Below, in pieces: positions 22,610 through 35,891 of a stretch of 64,000 nucleotides of DNA. The stretch lies in NCBI GenBank assembly GCA_021833625.1, contig JAKBEU010000001.1:310001-374000 (forward strand). Direction: 5' to 3'. The translations under genes and the position numbers were made by a program. A model generated the notes under the pieces. That model was not told the origin of the DNA and made no database searches. It worked only from the letters and a program-made list of their open reading frames with translations. The stretch's first letter is position 1; each line of letters begins with the position of its first letter. This DNA comes from a bacterium. Its GTDB lineage: Bacteria > Patescibacteriota > Microgenomatia > UBA1406 > GWC2-37-13.

Positions 22610-22638
22610 TTGACAAAGGACCTCTATCATGTTATACT
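22610..22638 (+). promoter_or_regulatory. Strong promoter for a long-leader unit (TTGACA-17-TATACT)
   Basis: TTGACA at 22610-22615, 17-nt spacer and TATACT at 22633-22638. Transcription is expected near 22645, about 380 nt before the next gene, unlike the leaderless pattern elsewhere. Confidence 0.85.
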
Positions 22639-22644
22639 ATAGGC

Positions 22645-23028
22645 TGTATGAGTAATGACCAATCATATGGTTTTTAACTCATAACCGAGTTTTGAGGACT
22701 TGGAAGAGAGAGCAAATGCTGCCCTCACCCTACAAGACTTTAAGACTTACGATTCTTTCTCACAAGAAAGAATTCTGTGCCAGAAATATCGCTTCTCAAT
22801 AGCTGAGAAGAGGAATGTTTCCAGGCGCTCTTTGAAAACTTGGGTTTAGGAATTTTCACTTTGAATACGAATAAAAGTGGTATCTATCTCTTTGTGGTCC
22901 GCGTTATGGAGAGAACAAGATCTGTTTTCTTCACAGCGTGGACCACAGAACATCGATGGTACCATAGGGATAGTAACCCTACTCAAATAACTATGTTTTG
23001 ATCAATGGGAAAAGGAGCCCTGATTAAA
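22645..23028 (+). ncRNA. Long structured 5' leader (or small RNA)
   Basis: About 384 nt with no real ORF between promoter and coding start. It has several hairpins: ATTCTTTCT/AGAAAGAAT (about 22754-22776), CTTCTCA/TGAGAAG (about 22793-22811), and a 25-bp stem at 22893-22947 with only one mismatch, four G-U pairs and the loop AGATC. A last small stem TAGGG/CCCTA follows near 22970. The many G-U pairs suggest selection at the RNA level. It could be a regulatory leader, a stability element or a processed RNA. No known riboswitch class was recognised. Confidence 0.65.
22893..22947 (+). other. 25-bp imperfect hairpin in leader
   Basis: The arm opening TGTGGTCCGCG pairs with the arm closing CGTGGACCACA. 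Twenty-four of 25 positions pair, including four G-U, and the loop has 5 nt (AGATC). Confidence 0.85.
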
Positions 23029-23787
23029 ATGACTACGACTTTGCTTGTAACCCTGTTCTGCATTATCCCGCTCGTGCTGATGGTTGTTCTGTTAGTCGCC
23101 ATCATCAAGTTTGGGGTAAAGGTTATCACGTGGCCCTTCCGGGCTATTGCTAACCTGTTCAACAAACGCCCTGCTCAGACTGCTGCCCCCGTGGCACAGC
23201 CCGTCCAGGATGGCCGGATGCCGCAGCAATACGGCGCTCCGGTTACGCAGACCGTTACTCTGAATAACAATGGTGTTGGTGGAACCGCACTCGCGATCGT
23301 CGCCCTCGTGGTGACCCTCGTCGTACTTGCGATTGTGGCGCTTGCTCTGTTCTCTGCCACTCCCACCGCCGCTCCGGTTGCCGCACCCGCACAGATCGTC
23401 TATGTGGCTGCCCCGACCGCTATGGCACCCGTTGTTGTTCCGACCACTGCTTCCGTTCCCGCTGTTAACGCCCCCGTTCAGCAGTGCCGTGTCATCCATG
23501 ATTACCAGCTCAAGGACCTCCCTGAGGTCTCGACCAGCTTTGGTAATTTCATTCACGTTGAATACTACGTGGATGGGCAGCCGGAGTTTGAAACTCTCCT
23601 GCCTGGCGGACGCTACACCCTGAACACCCAGTTCCCTGGCGGTCACGTCTGGGAATATACTGGCTGCACCCAGAACGAAGTGATGGCGCAGATCAATGCG
23701 CATATCGCCCGCCGTCTGGAGCAGAAGGCAAATAACGGTGGCTACCAGGAATGGCAGTCGACGGGTTTTTTCTCCCCCGTGCAATAA
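23029..23787 (+). CDS. Two-TM Ala/Pro/Val-rich membrane protein of unknown function
   Basis: A 252-aa protein with a TM segment at the N-terminus (about 4-30), a linker rich in Ala/Pro/Gln, a second TM (about 84-108), a Pro/Ala/Thr/Val-rich stretch (about 110-155) and a globular C-terminus (about 157-252, with three Cys). I recognise no family. The start at 23029 has AAAGGAG 11 nt upstream; 23005 is a possible longer start but lacks such a site. Codon use favours CTG, GTG, CGC, ACC and other C/G-ending codons, unlike all neighbours. Together with the strong promoter, structured leader and Shine-Dalgarno site, this suggests very high expression or a foreign origin. Confidence 0.75.
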   Translation: MTTTLLVTLFCIIPLVLMVVLLVAIIKFGVKVITWPFRAIANLFNKRPAQTAAPVAQPVQDGRMPQQYGAPVTQTVTLNNNGVGGTALAIVALVVTLVVLAIVALALFSATPTAAPVAAPAQIVYVAAPTAMAPVVVPTTASVPAVNAPVQQCRVIHDYQLKDLPEVSTSFGNFIHVEYYVDGQPEFETLLPGGRYTLNTQFPGGHVWEYTGCTQNEVMAQINAHIARRLEQKANNGGYQEWQSTGFFSPVQ

Positions 23788-24008
23788 GAGAGAAAGAGAG
23801 GAAAGTTCCTAGTATAACCCAAGGAGTTACAGCCCAAAAGCTGTAACGGGGGAGCTCTGTTGATGCTTGGTTTTGCGGCGTGATCTTCACGCCCAATTGC
23901 CTCACCGCAATCAAAATCAAACTCAACACCTCCCCTTCTTCTCCTAAATGCAGGATAAACAAAATCGTGCACTGAGGAAAAGGAGATAAACGCAACAAAA
24001 TAAACAAT
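23788..24008 (+). other. Structured 3' region after the two-TM gene
   Basis: No gene. It holds an 8-bp hairpin GTTACAGC/GCTGTAAC (23826-23847) and a second hairpin GGCGTGA/TCACGCC (23877-23893). Around the second, TTGCGG and CCGCAA and then GTTGA and TCAAC can also pair, giving an extended arm out to GGGGAG/CTCCCC. There is no T-tract, so it is not a classical terminator. It may stabilise the mRNA end. Confidence 0.55.
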
Positions 24009-24935
24009 ATGAAAAAAAATCAGACAATACACAATCCGCTCGTTTCAGTCGTTATGCCCATATATAACGCAGAACTCTTTTTGCGTGAGGCTGTCGACAG
24101 TATATTAGCCCAGACCTATCAGCACTTTGAACTTATATTGGTCAATGACGCCTCTACCGACTCTTCGCTTTCCATCATGCAGTCGTACAAGAAACAGTTT
24201 CCGAAAAAAATAACCATCCTTAATCTGAAAAAAACCCTGAACCGTGGAGGAGATTCATGTGCAAACAAGGGTCTTGAAGTAGCAAAAGGAACGTATGTTG
24301 CGCGTATGGACGCCGACGACGTAGCTCACCCGGAACGACTTGCAAAACAGGTTGCTTTTCTTGAAAAAAATCCCGCAACCTTCCTTGTCGGAACAAATGC
24401 GTTTGTCATCGATGCGAAAGGACAAGTTATTGGAGAGAAAAATGAACCTTCTTCTCATAGCCAGATCTATAATAACTACTTTACTTACCACCCTATTATC
24501 CATCCTTCTGCAATGTATCGCAGATTATATAAAAACACTCCCTTCTCTTATACACTTAAGTTTAGTGCCAATAACGACTATTATTCTTTTTTCCGCTTGA
24601 TCTGTCAGGGAGCTCAGTTTGCAAATTTGCCGGAAAAGCTTCTTTTCTACCGTGTTCATAAAAATAACAATACGTTTAACAATATAAAAACAAAGTTCAT
24701 GAATACGCTGAAGACACGTATAAAGATGGTGAAGACATATGGATACTCTCCTACTGCTGCACAAATCGCAATTACCGTCATTCAATTTTTGACCATCATG
24801 TGCCTGCCGGAAGGTGTCCTGACCCGCTTATACCTCATATCAAAAGGAGTCATAAAGCCCGGTAAAAAAATAGGGGAACTCTTTTCCTCTTTTCTCTCAC
24901 TTTTAAGCCGAAAGTCTACGGCCGTCACCTCATAA
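24009..24935 (+). CDS. Family 2 glycosyltransferase
   Basis: A 308-aa GT2 protein with PLVSVVMPIYNAELFL at the N-terminus, LVNDASTDSS (about 44-53), the DxD motif in ARMDADDVAHPERL (about 98-111), and H-rich acceptor segment YHPIIHPSAMYRR. The C-terminal part (about 230-300) is hydrophobic and basic, suggesting membrane association. It probably adds a sugar during surface polysaccharide or glycolipid synthesis, alongside the YfhO-like membrane protein 40 nt downstream. Confidence 0.92.
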   Translation: MKKNQTIHNPLVSVVMPIYNAELFLREAVDSILAQTYQHFELILVNDASTDSSLSIMQSYKKQFPKKITILNLKKTLNRGGDSCANKGLEVAKGTYVARMDADDVAHPERLAKQVAFLEKNPATFLVGTNAFVIDAKGQVIGEKNEPSSHSQIYNNYFTYHPIIHPSAMYRRLYKNTPFSYTLKFSANNDYYSFFRLICQGAQFANLPEKLLFYRVHKNNNTFNNIKTKFMNTLKTRIKMVKTYGYSPTAAQIAITVIQFLTIMCLPEGVLTRLYLISKGVIKPGKKIGELFSSFLSLLSRKSTAVTS

Positions 24936-24975
24936 AACGAGTCTCTCACGAAAAGATAATCTGTATACTGTGAAT

Positions 24976-27900
24976 ATGGGTAAAAAATACCGCCATCTTC
25001 TTCCCATTTTTATGTTTATTCTTCTTGAGGTTATTCTTTTTATCACCAATTATGTTCCCCATACCTATCTTGTCGGATGGGACAACGTGTTTTCGGAGCT
25101 TAATTTTAAGAATGCCTTCAAAATAAACCTCTTCTCCGTTTGGCAACAATACAGAGGACTAGGGGTGCAGGATGGGATGGCTCATGCGGCAAATCTCATT
25201 CACACCTGTATTGCCCTTTTGCTTTCGCTTTTTCTTCCACAAAATCTTATCCGCTATGTCTTCCACTTTTCAATGCACCTCCTTGGGATGGTAGGAATGT
25301 ACATCATCCTTCATAAAGAATTTAAAAAAAGTATATTCGTTTCCACCTTAGGAGGACTCTTCTATGGCCTTAATCTTGCGACAATCCAGATGTTTTTTGC
25401 TCCCCTTGAGGTGTTCTCCGTGCATTTTGCTGCTATTCCTTGTGGTATTCTTGCTTTACTCACCTTCTTTGAGAAGCCAAGCAAAAAAAGTGCTCTTATT
25501 CTTTTCCTTACCAACGTCCTTTTCTCTCCGCAGGGCTTCGTACCAACGGTTTTTATTGCCTATCTTATTGGTCTTTTTTGTTTTAGTACGTATGCTTTCT
25601 TTCGTCATTGGAACTGGAAAACTGCAAGAATAGTTTGTATCGCATTTGCAATAATTCTTTCGGCCAATGCATTCTGGCTTTTTCCCTTCATAAATGGAGC
25701 TATAACACAGGGAAACACGATAAAAAATACAAAAATAAACCAAATTTCTTCCGAAGAAATTTATCAGAAAAACATAAAAAGAGGAAATCTTACTGACGTT
25801 ATACTCCTCAAGGGATTTATGCTTGATACGGTCGAAAACAATCTCGGTGGAACCCCCACTTTCATTATGGAAGGGTGGAATAGACACTTCAGCAATGGAG
25901 GTGTGGCGGCCATTTCTTATTTTCTCGCCGCTTTAGCGCTCTTAGGGATGGGGGCTGTTGCACTGCGAAACAAAGACAAGCGGAGCTATGCGCCTCTCTT
26001 ACTTTTTATCAGTGCTTTTTTCTTTCTAGGAACCGATGTTCCCGGTATAGGTTTTTTAAACGAAATCATACGGAAATATATTCCCCTTTTTGGGGAAGCG
26101 TTTCGTTTTCCTTTCACGAAACTTGTGCTGATATTCGCTTTTGCCTATGGAATTTTGGTCGCTGAAGGAATTGAATTATTAGGAAGTTGGCTTACCAAAC
26201 AAATAAGGTCAGTGCTTTATCTTATTATCCTTGGTTTTATTCTTATATATTCTTTCCCTGCATTCTCGGGATTGTTCTTCTATCCTTCCATCCGTCTCCC
26301 CATTCCTCAAGATTATTTTGCAATAATTTCCTATTTCAAAAATGAACCTCCCAATGCGCGGATAATGACACTTCCCCAGTCAAGTTTTTGGAACTGGCTT
26401 TACTACAGATGGGGAGAGCGGGGCTCGGGATTTGCGTGGTACGGGATCGAACAACCAACTCTGGAGCGTCCGTTTGACCCATGGAGTAATTATAATGGGC
26501 AGTACTTCAATGAGGTTGTCTATGCGGTGCAAACTGAAAATAAGGGGCTCTTCCAAAATATTGTAAACAAATACGATATCAGCTACATCCTCATCGATGA
26601 CAATATATTACAGACGAGTAAAATACAACGGAAGGAAAAAATGGAAGAATTTATCGCTTCCATTTATCCTAATAGTCACCTTTTTAGGACGAGTTCCATC
26701 GATGTTTTTAAGTTAGATGAAAAGCCGTTTATTAAAAAAATCTCACCAATGACAGTCCAGGGTGTGGCTCCTTATGATTTTATCGATACGGTATACAGAG
26801 AAAATGGAGATTATGCCACCTCCCTGACTGAAGGAGTGTTTTACCCCTTTTCTTCCCTGTTTACTAATAAAACCCAGCCTGATATTTCAACCCAGGTCAC
26901 TCGTAACGACAACACTCTTGTTTTGAGAGATGAAATCAATCAGATGCGTGTGCCACAAAACGGCCAGGTTTTCGTTCAGTTCCCGTCCTTTGCAGAAAAT
27001 GAAAAATCCGTATTCGCTAAAATCATTACCCAAAAAGATACGCTCATCATCTCGCCAGTTATTTTCTCACTTAAGGTGGGCAATCAAATTATTTCCTATA
27101 CTCCGTTTAAACAGGAGACTATTGCAGCAAAAGGGATAAGCGAATGCGTACTTAACGATGCACCCATTGATTCAAAAAAAACCACATCTTTGACCATTGA
27201 TCTTCCTAACGTATTCCATTGTACCTACGGAGATGGATCTGAAAAGTCTCTGCAGTATTATCCACGGGTAAACCCCTCACTGTCCCAGCCAATTCAGCTT
27301 AAGGAGGGAGAGTATCACTTCGATCTTTCTTTTGAATACCCGCAATACCCCATTTTGGCCGAGGGGAAGGTACAGAGCGCAATTGACGAAAACATCAAGC
27401 AAACCTGCTCGGAAGAGCTTCGAAAAGGAGATAGCTCTCTAGTAAAAACAGAGGACGAAGTATCCATGCAATCAAGGGACAGCTCTTCTTGCTATGATTT
27501 GTTTCTTTCAAGCGCGTCTCAAAGACAAGGCCTTCTATTGTTTATTAACACAAAAAATACCTCCGGGTTATCACTTCGTTTTGTCGTCGATAATCCTCAG
27601 CAAAAAGTGAATATTATCGATACAAAACTTGATGGTGAAGAAGGAAAAAATGTAATTATTGTTCCACCAACATCTTCATATGTCTATTTTGGATATGGAA
27701 TACACTTTAGGAATATTTCACTTGACAATTCATTATCAAAAAATTCAATTCAGAATATAGATGCCGGAGCAATTCCCTATTCTTGGATAAAGGGCATTAA
27801 AATAGGAGCAACTAGTGCTCCTCCTATTGAACTCGGCACTGTTTCCTTTCGAGAGATAAACCCCTCGTACTACATTATTGACAATAATACAGCTAATACC

Positions 27901-28161
27901 GTTGTATTGTCCCAATCGTTCAATCAGGAATGGGGGGCATATTCGTTTGACACGTCGCCAAATGTATTCCAACAACTTCTCCCCTTCCTTTTTGGAAAGA
28001 GAATACAAGACCATGTGCTCGTAAATAATTGGGCAAATGGCTGGATTGTCAACGGACAAACAGATATTGTTATTGTGTTTCTCCCGCAGTATTTAGAATA
28101 TCTTGGATTTGGAGTTCTCCTTTTCTCGCTCGCTATAATTCTGCTCCGAAAAGAAAAATGA
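24976..28161 (+). CDS. Large YfhO-like GT-C membrane protein
   Basis: A 1061-aa protein. The N-terminal 480 residues hold about 12 TM segments and a first extracytoplasmic loop with GWDNVFSELNF (acidic, as in GT-C enzymes), and an EAFRFPFTKL segment like the RxPxRF region of YfhO and arabinofuranosyltransferase-type proteins. It is followed by an extracytoplasmic beta-rich region of about 550 residues and one last TM (about 1035-1055) with the tail LLRKEK. It likely transfers sugars from a lipid-linked donor to surface molecules. The start at 24976 follows TATACT (24964-24969) by 6 nt; the GTG at 24970 is less likely. Confidence 0.85.
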   Translation: MGKKYRHLLPIFMFILLEVILFITNYVPHTYLVGWDNVFSELNFKNAFKINLFSVWQQYRGLGVQDGMAHAANLIHTCIALLLSLFLPQNLIRYVFHFSMHLLGMVGMYIILHKEFKKSIFVSTLGGLFYGLNLATIQMFFAPLEVFSVHFAAIPCGILALLTFFEKPSKKSALILFLTNVLFSPQGFVPTVFIAYLIGLFCFSTYAFFRHWNWKTARIVCIAFAIILSANAFWLFPFINGAITQGNTIKNTKINQISSEEIYQKNIKRGNLTDVILLKGFMLDTVENNLGGTPTFIMEGWNRHFSNGGVAAISYFLAALALLGMGAVALRNKDKRSYAPLLLFISAFFFLGTDVPGIGFLNEIIRKYIPLFGEAFRFPFTKLVLIFAFAYGILVAEGIELLGSWLTKQIRSVLYLIILGFILIYSFPAFSGLFFYPSIRLPIPQDYFAIISYFKNEPPNARIMTLPQSSFWNWLYYRWGERGSGFAWYGIEQPTLERPFDPWSNYNGQYFNEVVYAVQTENKGLFQNIVNKYDISYILIDDNILQTSKIQRKEKMEEFIASIYPNSHLFRTSSIDVFKLDEKPFIKKISPMTVQGVAPYDFIDTVYRENGDYATSLTEGVFYPFSSLFTNKTQPDISTQVTRNDNTLVLRDEINQMRVPQNGQVFVQFPSFAENEKSVFAKIITQKDTLIISPVIFSLKVGNQIISYTPFKQETIAAKGISECVLNDAPIDSKKTTSLTIDLPNVFHCTYGDGSEKSLQYYPRVNPSLSQPIQLKEGEYHFDLSFEYPQYPILAEGKVQSAIDENIKQTCSEELRKGDSSLVKTEDEVSMQSRDSSSCYDLFLSSASQRQGLLLFINTKNTSGLSLRFVVDNPQQKVNIIDTKLDGEEGKNVIIVPPTSSYVYFGYGIHFRNISLDNSLSKNSIQNIDAGAIPYSWIKGIKIGATSAPPIELGTVSFREINPSYYIIDNNTANTVVLSQSFNQEWGAYSFDTSPNVFQQLLPFLFGKRIQDHVLVNNWANGWIVNGQTDIVIVFLPQYLEYLGFGVLLFSLAIILLRKEK

Positions 28162-28162
28162 G

Positions 28163-28206
28163 TCAGGGCCAGGGCGCGACCTTTAAGGTCGCGGGTTCAG
28201 GGCCAG
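28163..28206. repeat. Palindromic element copy 2 with flanking 10-bp direct repeats
   Basis: The 22-base palindromic element (28174-28195) identical to the copy in ychF lies 2 nt after the stop codon of the YfhO-like gene. It is bracketed by two copies of TCAGGGCCAG (28163-28172 and 28197-28206), which look like a target-site duplication or part of a longer mobile unit. Confidence 0.65.
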
Positions 28207-28421
28207 AAGGTTGTCTTTCCCTCTCTGCATAAATTCCTTCATTTATAGAGAAAGGGAAAGAGAGGGGTTGTGGAGAAGATGATTTTAATAGCGGTAGGGC
28301 TATGGCTGCAGAAGTGCACAGCCAAGCACAAGCTCTATATATCAGATCTCAACAACCCCTCAGTGGAGGACCGCGAAGCATGGAAAGCTTCGTATTCACA
28401 CTATCCTCCTTTCGGGTGTAT
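28207..28421. other. Structured convergent intergenic region
   Basis: No credible gene. A 19-position stem (16 paired) spans 28215-28233 and 28242-28260. Further pairs are AGGGGTTGT (about 28263) with ACAACCCCT (about 28351) and GAAGC/GCTTC (about 28374-28390). It probably forms the 3' ends of the two convergent genes. There is no T-tract on either strand. Confidence 0.5.
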
Positions 28422-28844
28422 CTACTGAGTGTTCGTTGGCGCTGTTGTCGGCGTTTTGGGGAGAGCACGATTCCACCAGATTCTCGCTTCCTGCTCGCAG
28501 GAGAACGAGAACTTGATGTTGGCAGCAACTTCCATGCCTTCGGTGGCGGCACTGCTTCCGGTGGGGAGATTGTCACTGTTCAATGAGAACAAAGTGCAAT
28601 TTCCCTCCACGTGAGTGGTCCACTTCAGGTCAGGATTTGAACCTCCAGGCAGAGTCACAACGACTTCCTGCTTCGCCAACACTTCTTCGGGAATGTACGT
28701 TTCCACCGTTTGTCCGTATCGCTTGGCAGACTGGAGTGAGTAGGGTCCGCCTGCACCACCACACGCCGTAAGCAGCATGCCAAATACGGCAATCAGACTC
28801 AGCACGACCAACAACTTCTTCGTGGTAAAACCTGTCTTTTTCAT
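28422..28844 (-). CDS. Small lipoprotein of unknown function
   Basis: A 140-aa protein with a signal peptide and a clean lipobox LLTACGG (Cys about 27), so it should be lipid-anchored outside the membrane. The mature part (about 113 residues, YSLQSAKRYGQTVETYIPEE..., with a Cys pair) is not recognised, and ends in a TPTTAPTNTQ tail. The start at 28844 has AAAGGA 9 nt upstream; 28862 is an alternative that would add six basic residues. Codon use is richer in C/G third positions than the neighbours, like the two-TM gene at 23029, and it too has a long structured leader. Confidence 0.8.
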   Translation of the reverse strand: MKKTGFTTKKLLVVLSLIAVFGMLLTACGGAGGPYSLQSAKRYGQTVETYIPEEVLAKQEVVVTLPGGSNPDLKWTTHVEGNCTLFSLNSDNLPTGSSAATEGMEVAANIKFSFSCEQEARIWWNRALPKTPTTAPTNTQ

Positions 28845-29189
28845 GATCCTTTTTCCTTTCATCGAAACCGATTTTTCTCATCTCTCAGGCACCCTTAGGG
28901 CACTTTACGCTGAGTTTGCCAGAGCTTTTTAGGCTCTGAACAGGGATTTGAGAAAATTCCCTTTTTTGCTTCACCACCTCTTTTCGTTTCATGTTCCGAA
29001 CTGATCCTACGTCCTGTCCTTAAACAACAATTTAAAGCCAAGACATAGGACCAATTCATACCAACGCAAGTAGTTAAAAATAACCCGAAATGTAAAAGAG
29101 CTTGTTATGACAGCATCATAAGCCGGCTTTTGGCATATTTTACTGTCTGACAACCGTCTATTTATACATATTTATTATGTATAGTTTAC
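28845..29189 (-). ncRNA. Long structured 5' leader of the lipoprotein gene (or small RNA)
   Basis: About 345 nt from the expected transcription start near 29189 to the coding start, without a real ORF. It has a 22-position stem at 29003-29052 (21 paired, four of them G-U, loop TTGTTG), plus TATACATA/TATGTATA (about 29164-29184), TTATGA/TCATAA (about 29104-29121) and CAGAGC/GCTCTG (about 28920-28939). The design is like that of the leader at 22645, but I see no long shared sequence. Confidence 0.65.
29003..29052 (-). other. 22-bp imperfect hairpin in leader
   Basis: On the minus strand the arm opening GGTCCTATGTC pairs with the arm closing GACGTAGGATC. Twenty-one of 22 positions pair, four of them G-U, around a 6-nt loop. 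Confidence 0.85.
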
Positions 29190-29195
29190 CTGTTC

Positions 29196-29224
29196 ATTAT
29201 ATCATACTATAGGCTTGAATTCAA
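29196..29224 (-). promoter_or_regulatory. Promoter of the lipoprotein unit (TTGAAT-17-TATAAT)
   Basis: Read on the minus strand, TTGAAT (29219-29224), a 17-nt spacer and TATAAT (29196-29201). Its -10 is 345-350 nt from the coding start. Confidence 0.8.
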
Positions 29225-34124: not shown

Positions 34125-35891
34125 TTATTCTTCATCATATTTTATTGATAACGCCTGTAGTACTATTGAATAGTCCTGAGTATCAATGATATTGTCAAGA
34201 TTAAGATCTCCTATTGCGAGTTTGCTTGCATCGGTTGAGCCTAGATTCTGGCGAATAAATGTCGTATCGTACGAATCGATTATCCCGTTTTGTTTCCCAT
34301 TTGTTTCCGGCAAGTCTCCGCTTAACATCACTATTCTCGAGAAGTCGAGCGTATTTGTTCCTGATTTTAATGTAATATTTCCGTCAGCACAATGATATGC
34401 TCCCGCTTTTGATTCGGTCGGTGCACTGTCACACACTTTCTTTTGCAGTTGTTTCGGACCTTTGACGTATACCCTATATCCGCCGCCGTTTGCGATATTG
34501 TTAAATGTTGCCTGGCCCGACCAGACGCCTGAGTCGTCAACCGTGAACGAAACTGTTTGATATGCGGTTGCAGACGTAAGACCTCCTCCGCCTAACTTCA
34601 CCTGTACTTTGAGCGGAGTGCTGTTTGCCGGTTTTTTTGTGATACCTTGTATCTTTATTTTTAAGGCAAGTGTTGCTGACCCTGAGCTGCCGGGAACTGA
34701 CGTTGGACCCACGACCGGATTAGTAACTCCAGGCACCGGTACATTGGGATTCGTGTTTCCCGAGGAGGTCATAAGTGATCCATAATAGTATCCAACTCTG
34801 TTGTCCCCTTCTCCCCACGCAACCGGCTGGGAGGTGTTTATTGAACCCTGGACTATACCGCTAAAGTCTCCATTTTGTACGAGTTCTTTTCCACTAGCAT
34901 TTTTCATCGACACATAATCAAAAAAGGCCTCAGACCCGCGGTCAACGCTTAAACGTAAAAGATAATGACGGTCATCTCCTGTCCCAGAAAGCGTAATGGG
35001 TTGATTTGTTTTTTCCACATAGTCTTTTGATTCGGGGAAAGCAAGACTATAGATAGTTGCATTTTGCTTTGTGCTGTTTGCACACGTGTCCGAATTACAC
35101 ACGAGTGTCACCCTCACTCCTTTTCCTTGAGATACTCCCGTAAGCACGCGAGCAGAGAGAGTATATTTGCCAAAAGGAAGGATTAATTCCTGGTCATAAT
35201 TCACGTCCGTTCCCAGAACCGTCATGTTTCCTGTTGCGTTTGAAGCTGCACAACAGTCATCAGACGTACCTGTCGACAGTTGGCATTTCGTATCATCATA
35301 ATAGCCCGCGTTTGGACTCGCAGAACAAACAAAAATGTTATCCGTCCCCTCATATCTACTGTATCGACATCCCGTCAAACCGGCACCAACTACTTTCAAA
35401 CAATCAAGACGTTTTCCGTAGTTACACTTCACTGTCACTTCGTCATATGGGCGGAGTGTCGAAGGAGCCACAGAAGCAGAGACAAATGTCTGTGCTTTAC
35501 ATTCATTATTGTTGTTATTGTTATTGTTGTTATTGTTATTGTTGTTATTGTTGTTATTGTTATTGTTATTATTGTTATTATCCCCACAAGTACAATCTTG
35601 CGTCTGAGCATCGCAAGTCTTCCCTGCCTGAGAACATGTACATGTACGAGTTTGCTGACATTTCGATCCGGTTGAGGCACACGCACTCCAAGCACCATAC
35701 GTTGGGGTACAGGTGCTACTATTTTGAACGCAACAATGAGCCTGACACGCCCAGCCAACTCCACCATTGCCACAATCGCTTGCTTGGCTACATTCATATA
35801 CTCCATTATCAATCATGCAAGCAGCACCTACGGTTCCCACAAAAAGGAGAATCGTATAAATCAAACTAAAATATATAAATAGTTTCTTCAT
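34125..35891 (-). CDS. Secreted modular protein with poly-Asn tract and C-terminal dockerin
   Basis: A 588-aa protein in the order: signal peptide (about 1-23), a Cys-rich region (about 24-103), 25 consecutive Asn (about 105-129), a galactose-binding-like beta domain with paired Cys (about 230-360) that is also present in the 402-aa protein, an Ig-like X-module (about 405-500) and a type-I dockerin. The dockerin has two calcium loops (NGKQNGIIDSYD and DLNLDNIIDTQD, about 527-576). This is a candidate ligand for the cohesins of the cluster. Its start overlaps the end of the upstream gene by 4 nt. Confidence 0.87.
   Translation of the reverse strand: MKKLFIYFSLIYTILLFVGTVGAACMIDNGVYECSQASDCGNGGVGWACQAHCCVQNSSTCTPTYGAWSACASTGSKCQQTRTCTCSQAGKTCDAQTQDCTCGDNNNNNNNNNNNNNNNNNNNNNNNNNECKAQTFVSASVAPSTLRPYDEVTVKCNYGKRLDCLKVVGAGLTGCRYSRYEGTDNIFVCSASPNAGYYDDTKCQLSTGTSDDCCAASNATGNMTVLGTDVNYDQELILPFGKYTLSARVLTGVSQGKGVRVTLVCNSDTCANSTKQNATIYSLAFPESKDYVEKTNQPITLSGTGDDRHYLLRLSVDRGSEAFFDYVSMKNASGKELVQNGDFSGIVQGSINTSQPVAWGEGDNRVGYYYGSLMTSSGNTNPNVPVPGVTNPVVGPTSVPGSSGSATLALKIKIQGITKKPANSTPLKVQVKLGGGGLTSATAYQTVSFTVDDSGVWSGQATFNNIANGGGYRVYVKGPKQLQKKVCDSAPTESKAGAYHCADGNITLKSGTNTLDFSRIVMLSGDLPETNGKQNGIIDSYDTTFIRQNLGSTDASKLAIGDLNLDNIIDTQDYSIVLQALSIKYDEE
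35505..35579 (-). repeat. Trinucleotide repeat coding for 25 Asn
   Basis: Twenty-five consecutive AAC/AAT codons (GTT/ATT on the plus strand) in irregular order. The mixed codons make it a partly degenerate microsatellite. A change in repeat number would alter the linker length without breaking the frame. Confidence 0.95.

Follow-up and report, generated by a model that had tools for sequence, protein, structure and literature searches.

The window, a stretch of 64,000 nt at positions 310001–374000 of contig C2 in a genome of 1.10 Mb and three contigs (G000), carries on its minus strand a unit (28422–29224; 28200–29224 with its trailer) that begins with a promoter-like site at 29196–29224. 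Its −35 hexamer TTGAAT (29224–29219) and −10 hexamer TATAAT (29201–29196) are separated by 17 nt, as a preliminary description of this DNA had claimed; the site, a consensus match only, agrees at 10 of 12 positions and has TG ahead of the −10, and taken alone it is not significant (one site here in the scan against 1.5 expected in shuffles). From the inferred transcription start, at about 29189, a leader of 345 nt (28845–29189), the length previously given, runs to an ATG at 28844 with the Shine–Dalgarno-like AAAGGAAAAAGG ahead of it; the longest frame of the gene opens at an earlier ATG, 28862, and would specify 146 aa instead of 140 aa. The predicted folds of the leader include a 5′ AU-rich hairpin (29163–29183), a hairpin (29109–29147) immediately upstream of a boxA-like element, GCTCTTTTACATTTCGGG (29084–29101, located by rrn-matrix score and alignment), a long hairpin (28997–29058) and a 3′ hairpin, CAGAGCC..GCTCTG (28920–28938). 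The stem of 22 positions described earlier is present but is longer than described, since in the minimum-energy fold it spans 29058–28997 with 19 pairs, one mismatch, 8 pairs and a 4-nt loop. An open frame of 54 aa within the leader (28895–29059, minus strand) overlaps this hairpin; no clear Shine–Dalgarno sequence was seen for it. The gene proper (28422–28844) has a GC content of 0.52 and a GC3 of 0.60, and its product has a hydrophobic N-terminus and, by eye, a lipobox-like LLTAC, in keeping with the ribosome-binding site and GC-rich lipoprotein gene first described. A folded trailer follows (28200–28421, z −6.6; its 3′ boundary is nominal). Nineteen bases, TGATATAATGAACAGGTAA, are common to the −10/start region and to a promoter upstream of 13389 on the same strand (L152), behind which the upstream region is also strongly folded (z −6.2).

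A second unit of the same design within 6 kb had also been claimed, and the plus-strand sister unit (22610–23787; to 24007 with its trailer), 6 kb away, confirms this with its promoter, folded leader and GC-rich gene. It comprises a promoter-like site, TTGACA-17-TATACT (22610–22638, 11 of 12 consensus matches), a leader (22645–23028, start inferred; fold z −7.7, and −7.3 in a second run) with boxA, GCTCTTTGAAAACTTGGG, followed by GGGTTTAGGA (22827–22844; located by rrn-matrix score, motif search and alignment), a gene for a membrane protein of 252 aa (23029–23787, longest frame from 23005; GC3 0.64) and a folded trailer (23788–24007, z −5.4). Between the two units lie, on the plus strand, genes for a family 2 glycosyltransferase (24009–24935) and a giant membrane protein (24970–28161). 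Elsewhere in the window, a predicted secreted protein encoded at 34125–35891 (minus strand) has about 25 consecutive asparagines.

The proteins encoded by the units, including those from other genomes discussed below, are unlike each other, with only weak, mostly low-complexity matches; the best match of the lipoprotein within a set of ten such proteins is 25% identity over 104 residues (E 0.007). It gave only weak matches, mostly N-terminal, in 57 relatives, one weak match below the cut-off in Pfam, and no relatives in NCBIfam, plasmids or phages, and the sister protein had no relative in viral contigs. An AlphaFold2 model of the lipoprotein, built without relatives, has a mean pLDDT of 64, with helix and beta strands, and no PDB match at E ≤ 0.001.

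The two units had been proposed to be related or regulated together. They are of one kind, but a relation by overall leader sequence did not hold up: the whole-leader alignment is not significant (score 12, reached by 25 of 100 shuffles), and a common fold of the two leaders was not established. Their best local alignment starts at GCTCTTT. The boxA-like element of the sister reads GCTCTTTGAAAACTTGGGTTTAGGA, and its GCTCTTTGAAAA is an identical 12-mer to one upstream of the genome's own 16S rRNA gene (C2:152887), where GCTCTTTGAAAAGTTGTT begins 77 nt upstream of the gene. The lipoprotein leader has a weaker boxA variant, GCTCTTTTACA; its GCTCTTTTACATTTCGGGTTA resembles the variant in one rrn leader (L135, GCACTTTTACAT) and is one base off GYTCTTTAANA, a published consensus that is gamma-proteobacterial (PMC5725501), and the element continues into CGGGTTA (29087–29081), similar to the GGGTTAGG element of rrn leaders. 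We surveyed rrn leaders at 33 loci, 30 of them anchorable (L058, L105, L112 and L120–L147 are among those in which boxA spacing was read), and used those of G075, G000, G002, G022, G007 and G090, which matched the boxA search, as the rrn reference. A site with at most two mismatches from GYWCTTTGANAA is present in 26 of the 30 anchored leaders, and GGGTTAGG lies 31–69 nt past the start of the boxA site in 28 of them; this CGGGTTAGG element may be a boxC-like component of rRNA antitermination. With a scoring matrix built from the family's rrn sites only and 2000 shuffles per leader, the score was equalled by 4 of 2000 shuffles for the sister and by 21 of 2000, a moderate significance, for the lipoprotein leader, and because of this difference we regard the latter element as probably boxA and the sister element as near certain, as judged from sequence. 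Of the 39 genes preceded by a gap of at least 220 nt, these two have the best boxA scores; a third unit, at C3:97849, is absent from that set, probably since its gap is interrupted by a spurious antisense ORF. An 18-mer boxA motif, itself derived from unit leaders, occurs three times in 464 kb sampled from the genome, in each case in one of these three units.

A genomic family of such leaders had been named as the check on the description, and besides the third unit we found five in other genomes of the order: two in G009, two in G037 (of another family of that order) and one in G033. All eight have a promoter-like site (recognized by eye, except for the two in the window), with boxA 55–384 nt past the inferred start. 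The lipoprotein, sister and one G009 leader were found without boxA, the last through its 3′ hairpin in common with the lipoprotein leader (alignment score 25, best of 100 shuffles 14), and all three have boxA; the other five, including the second G009 unit, were found through boxA, which in them is no independent evidence. The 5′ AU-rich hairpin likewise recurs in the third unit (score 18, best of 100 shuffles 14). The boxA score was equalled by 4 of 2000 shuffles in the third unit, 8 of 2000 in the G033 unit and none of 2000 in the four others; boxA of the units thus fits the rRNA leaders of the lineage, the lipoprotein leader being weaker than the rest. What is common to the units, on this sequence evidence, is a boxA-like element, a strong promoter, a folded leader and trailer, and a gene, usually GC-rich, for a predicted envelope protein; the leaders very probably form a real family.

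The 18-mer search of 372 genomes of the class found 82 sites, spread over 65 genomes, compared with 31 sites in the control, and the eight units are among the 58 of the 82 whose contexts were viewed. The extended core pattern occurs in unit context in only 3 of the 372 genomes; it was this pattern search that pointed to G037, whose gene then proved to be secreted-like with a GC3 of 0.82. In 84,980 species genomes the only match was record MGBH01000001.1, which corresponds to G009, and in viral contigs the boxA core pattern had no match. Two genomes of the same genus (G001, G002) are without the lipoprotein gene and its leader. By BLAST among 72 genomes of the family, the leader matched at E ≤ 0.01 in seven, its own included; seven of the eight other places were viewed, and only L022, in G009, is a leader. 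BoxA-like sites in G004 (five, L096–L100, at contig starts) and G057 (one, L102) were set aside for their resemblance to the ends of a repeated transposon-like element, in which GYTCTTTGAAAAATCGG lies inside a short inverted repeat; it is probably a transposon end, and in L102 a transposase-like ORF follows. Three copies of one sequence in G091 (L209, start of C2; L210, end of C6; L211, start of C14) have boxA-like GTTCTTTGACAATCCGGG at contig ends with the same AT-rich stretch ahead, a repeated element with a boxA-like leader. A site in G140 (L188, around 1500) has a promoter-like site, a boxA-like element and a gene with hardly any leader; we took it for a different boxA arrangement and did not count it.

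In all four genomes with units, a unit adjoins homologs of the giant membrane protein gene (in G009, G033 and G037 as in the window), the glycosyltransferase gene adjoins units in G009 and G037 too, and a DUF11 protein encoded upstream of the sister is 62% identical to one whose gene precedes a G009 unit. Because the neighbours are conserved and the unit proteins are unlike each other, a glycosylation-type locus would thus have next to it a conserved control region that drives different envelope proteins.

The unit genes also stand out in composition. In G000 their GC3 values (0.65, 0.64 and 0.60, the last that of the lipoprotein gene) are the three highest of 438 ORFs (mean 0.41, SD 0.06). 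Those of G037 have 0.62–0.82 against 0.19–0.36 for most neighbouring ORFs, the exceptions being short doubtful ORFs and one more secreted gene; the latter, just upstream of a unit (L229, 941–2095; GC3 0.77), encodes a VWA-domain protein and is perhaps another member. We rejected codon bias linked to high expression as the source of the high GC3 because EF-Tu, S12 and L28 (identified from motifs or by eye) lie at 0.31–0.35. Against synonymous shuffles, nine unit genes fold with a mean z of −1.67 (20 tiles) and 50 control ORFs with −0.27 (Mann–Whitney p 3e-5); the sister, the third unit and one G009 gene show the effect strongly, the lipoprotein gene not at all (z −0.48). The composition could come from selection on RNA folding, from foreign origin, or from both.

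Our working hypothesis, which we hold with moderate confidence, is that each unit makes its envelope-protein mRNA from a strong promoter and through a boxA antitermination leader of the rrn type, boxA-dependent processivity being the function. NusB is encoded in the genome and a Rho homolog was detected just under its cut-off, so that on these two the Nus machinery appears to be present. NusB with S10 (NusE) would bind boxA on the nascent RNA and help to load Nus factors onto RNA polymerase; the modified polymerase would resist Rho and pausing across hundreds of untranslated, folded nucleotides and the folded gene beyond, and the folded ends would give a long-lived mRNA and hence surface protein in large amounts. 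The products would be fast-evolving surface proteins, and the mRNAs long, folded and partly untranslated. The placement of boxA 125–604 nt from the start codon (239 nt in the lipoprotein unit, to the first start codon used) argues against suhB-type repression and for a role of the rrn and CRISPR-array type, in which boxA keeps the polymerase going through untranslated folded RNA (PMC7862264, PMC10250234) and, with a strong promoter, raises the precursor RNA of a CRISPR array about 10-fold (PMC7862264). Joint regulation of the units through the general Nus machinery is plausible. If this is correct, an uncultured, reduced lineage would be using Nus-dependent processivity to build its cell surface as well, the units would point to likely major surface proteins missed by every family search, and there would be a testable reason for coding regions with codon use far from that of their genome. 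More tentatively, and with rather less chance of being right, the units may be expression sites, in which the conserved rrn-like promoter and boxA leader, next to the conserved glycosyltransferase and giant membrane protein genes, drive whichever fast-changing surface gene sits there, and selection would act on the mRNA over its full length, also in the coding region, to fold like stable RNA; such selection would explain the extreme GC3.

Processivity need not be invoked if the leaders are simply folded, mRNA-stabilizing 5′ UTRs of abundant surface proteins in which boxA is minor or accidental and has no Nus-dependent role. All leaders do fold strongly (179–906 nt, z between −3.6 and −8.6, only the final 420 nt being folded in the two longest; for the lipoprotein leader z −5.53, with none of 100 shuffles as stable, and −8.6 over 327 nt with 30 shuffles), as do the seven trailers tested (z −4.0 or lower, down to −11), and boxA of the lipoprotein leader is weak. 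Yet boxA is present in eight of eight leaders that otherwise differ, three of them not found through it, and we consider this explanation unlikely. Equally doubtful is that the units are foreign GC-rich genes recently acquired behind native control regions, with the leaders only as landing sites: GC3 far above that of the genome and of its highly expressed genes would fit, but the lipoprotein has no relatives in plasmids, phages or the 57 related genomes, the G033 lipoprotein gene is not GC-rich (GC3 0.38), and the better folding of unit genes than of their synonymous shuffles, though not of the lipoprotein gene itself, points to selection on RNA. There is still less to recommend regulation of the suhB kind, in which Nus factors on the RNA close to the ribosome-binding site hold down translation. 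Such repression by boxA in an mRNA 5′ UTR is described for suhB, but the published screen covered distances of up to 50 bp, with one suhB case at 82 bp (PMC5725501), and boxA is farther than about 50 bp from the start codon in all eight units. A ligand-binding riboswitch or attenuator, which a long, strongly folded leader might suggest, is very improbable, as boxA is the only sequence common to all leaders, a minus-strand terminator scan from leader to gene found none, and Rfam gave no match at gathering score in the window apart from two tRNAs elsewhere in it (those of a permissive scan all lay far below their families' gathering scores), so that identity with an Rfam family or known riboswitch was rejected.

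The best-known occurrences of boxA are in rRNA, phage, suhB and CRISPR-array transcripts. At the nut sites of phage lambda, boxA in a leader modifies the polymerase for downstream protein genes (see also PMC10250234). The units resemble these in having boxA in a leader ahead of protein genes and differ in that no N-like protein or phage context was seen around them. With the boxB–boxA–boxC leader of rrn operons they share the boxA sequence (to the identical 12-mer in the sister), a hairpin that several of the predicted folds place ahead of boxA, a GGGTT(T)AGGA-like element past boxA, and a strong promoter with long folded RNA. Unlike rrn leaders, they drive protein genes, and GGGTTTAGGA follows boxA directly instead of 31–69 nt later. 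Two results of our modelling speak against a closer likeness: no leader–trailer helix of the rrn kind was found, native pairs being no stronger than mismatched ones in a crude test that takes no account of intrastrand folding, and in six of the eight predicted folds boxA shows no particular tendency to be unpaired, which leaves a special accessibility unsupported. CRISPR-array leaders, as cited in PMC7862264, similarly place boxA between a strong promoter and a long untranslated folded RNA, whereas the RNA downstream of boxA in the units is coding. As in suhB, the units have boxA in an mRNA 5′ UTR; suhB itself (PMC5725501) encodes a Nus factor, whereas the units encode predicted envelope proteins and have boxA far from the start codon in a long folded leader. 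boxA on an mRNA is thus already known from suhB, and what the units add is putative boxA on the mRNAs of unrelated envelope proteins.
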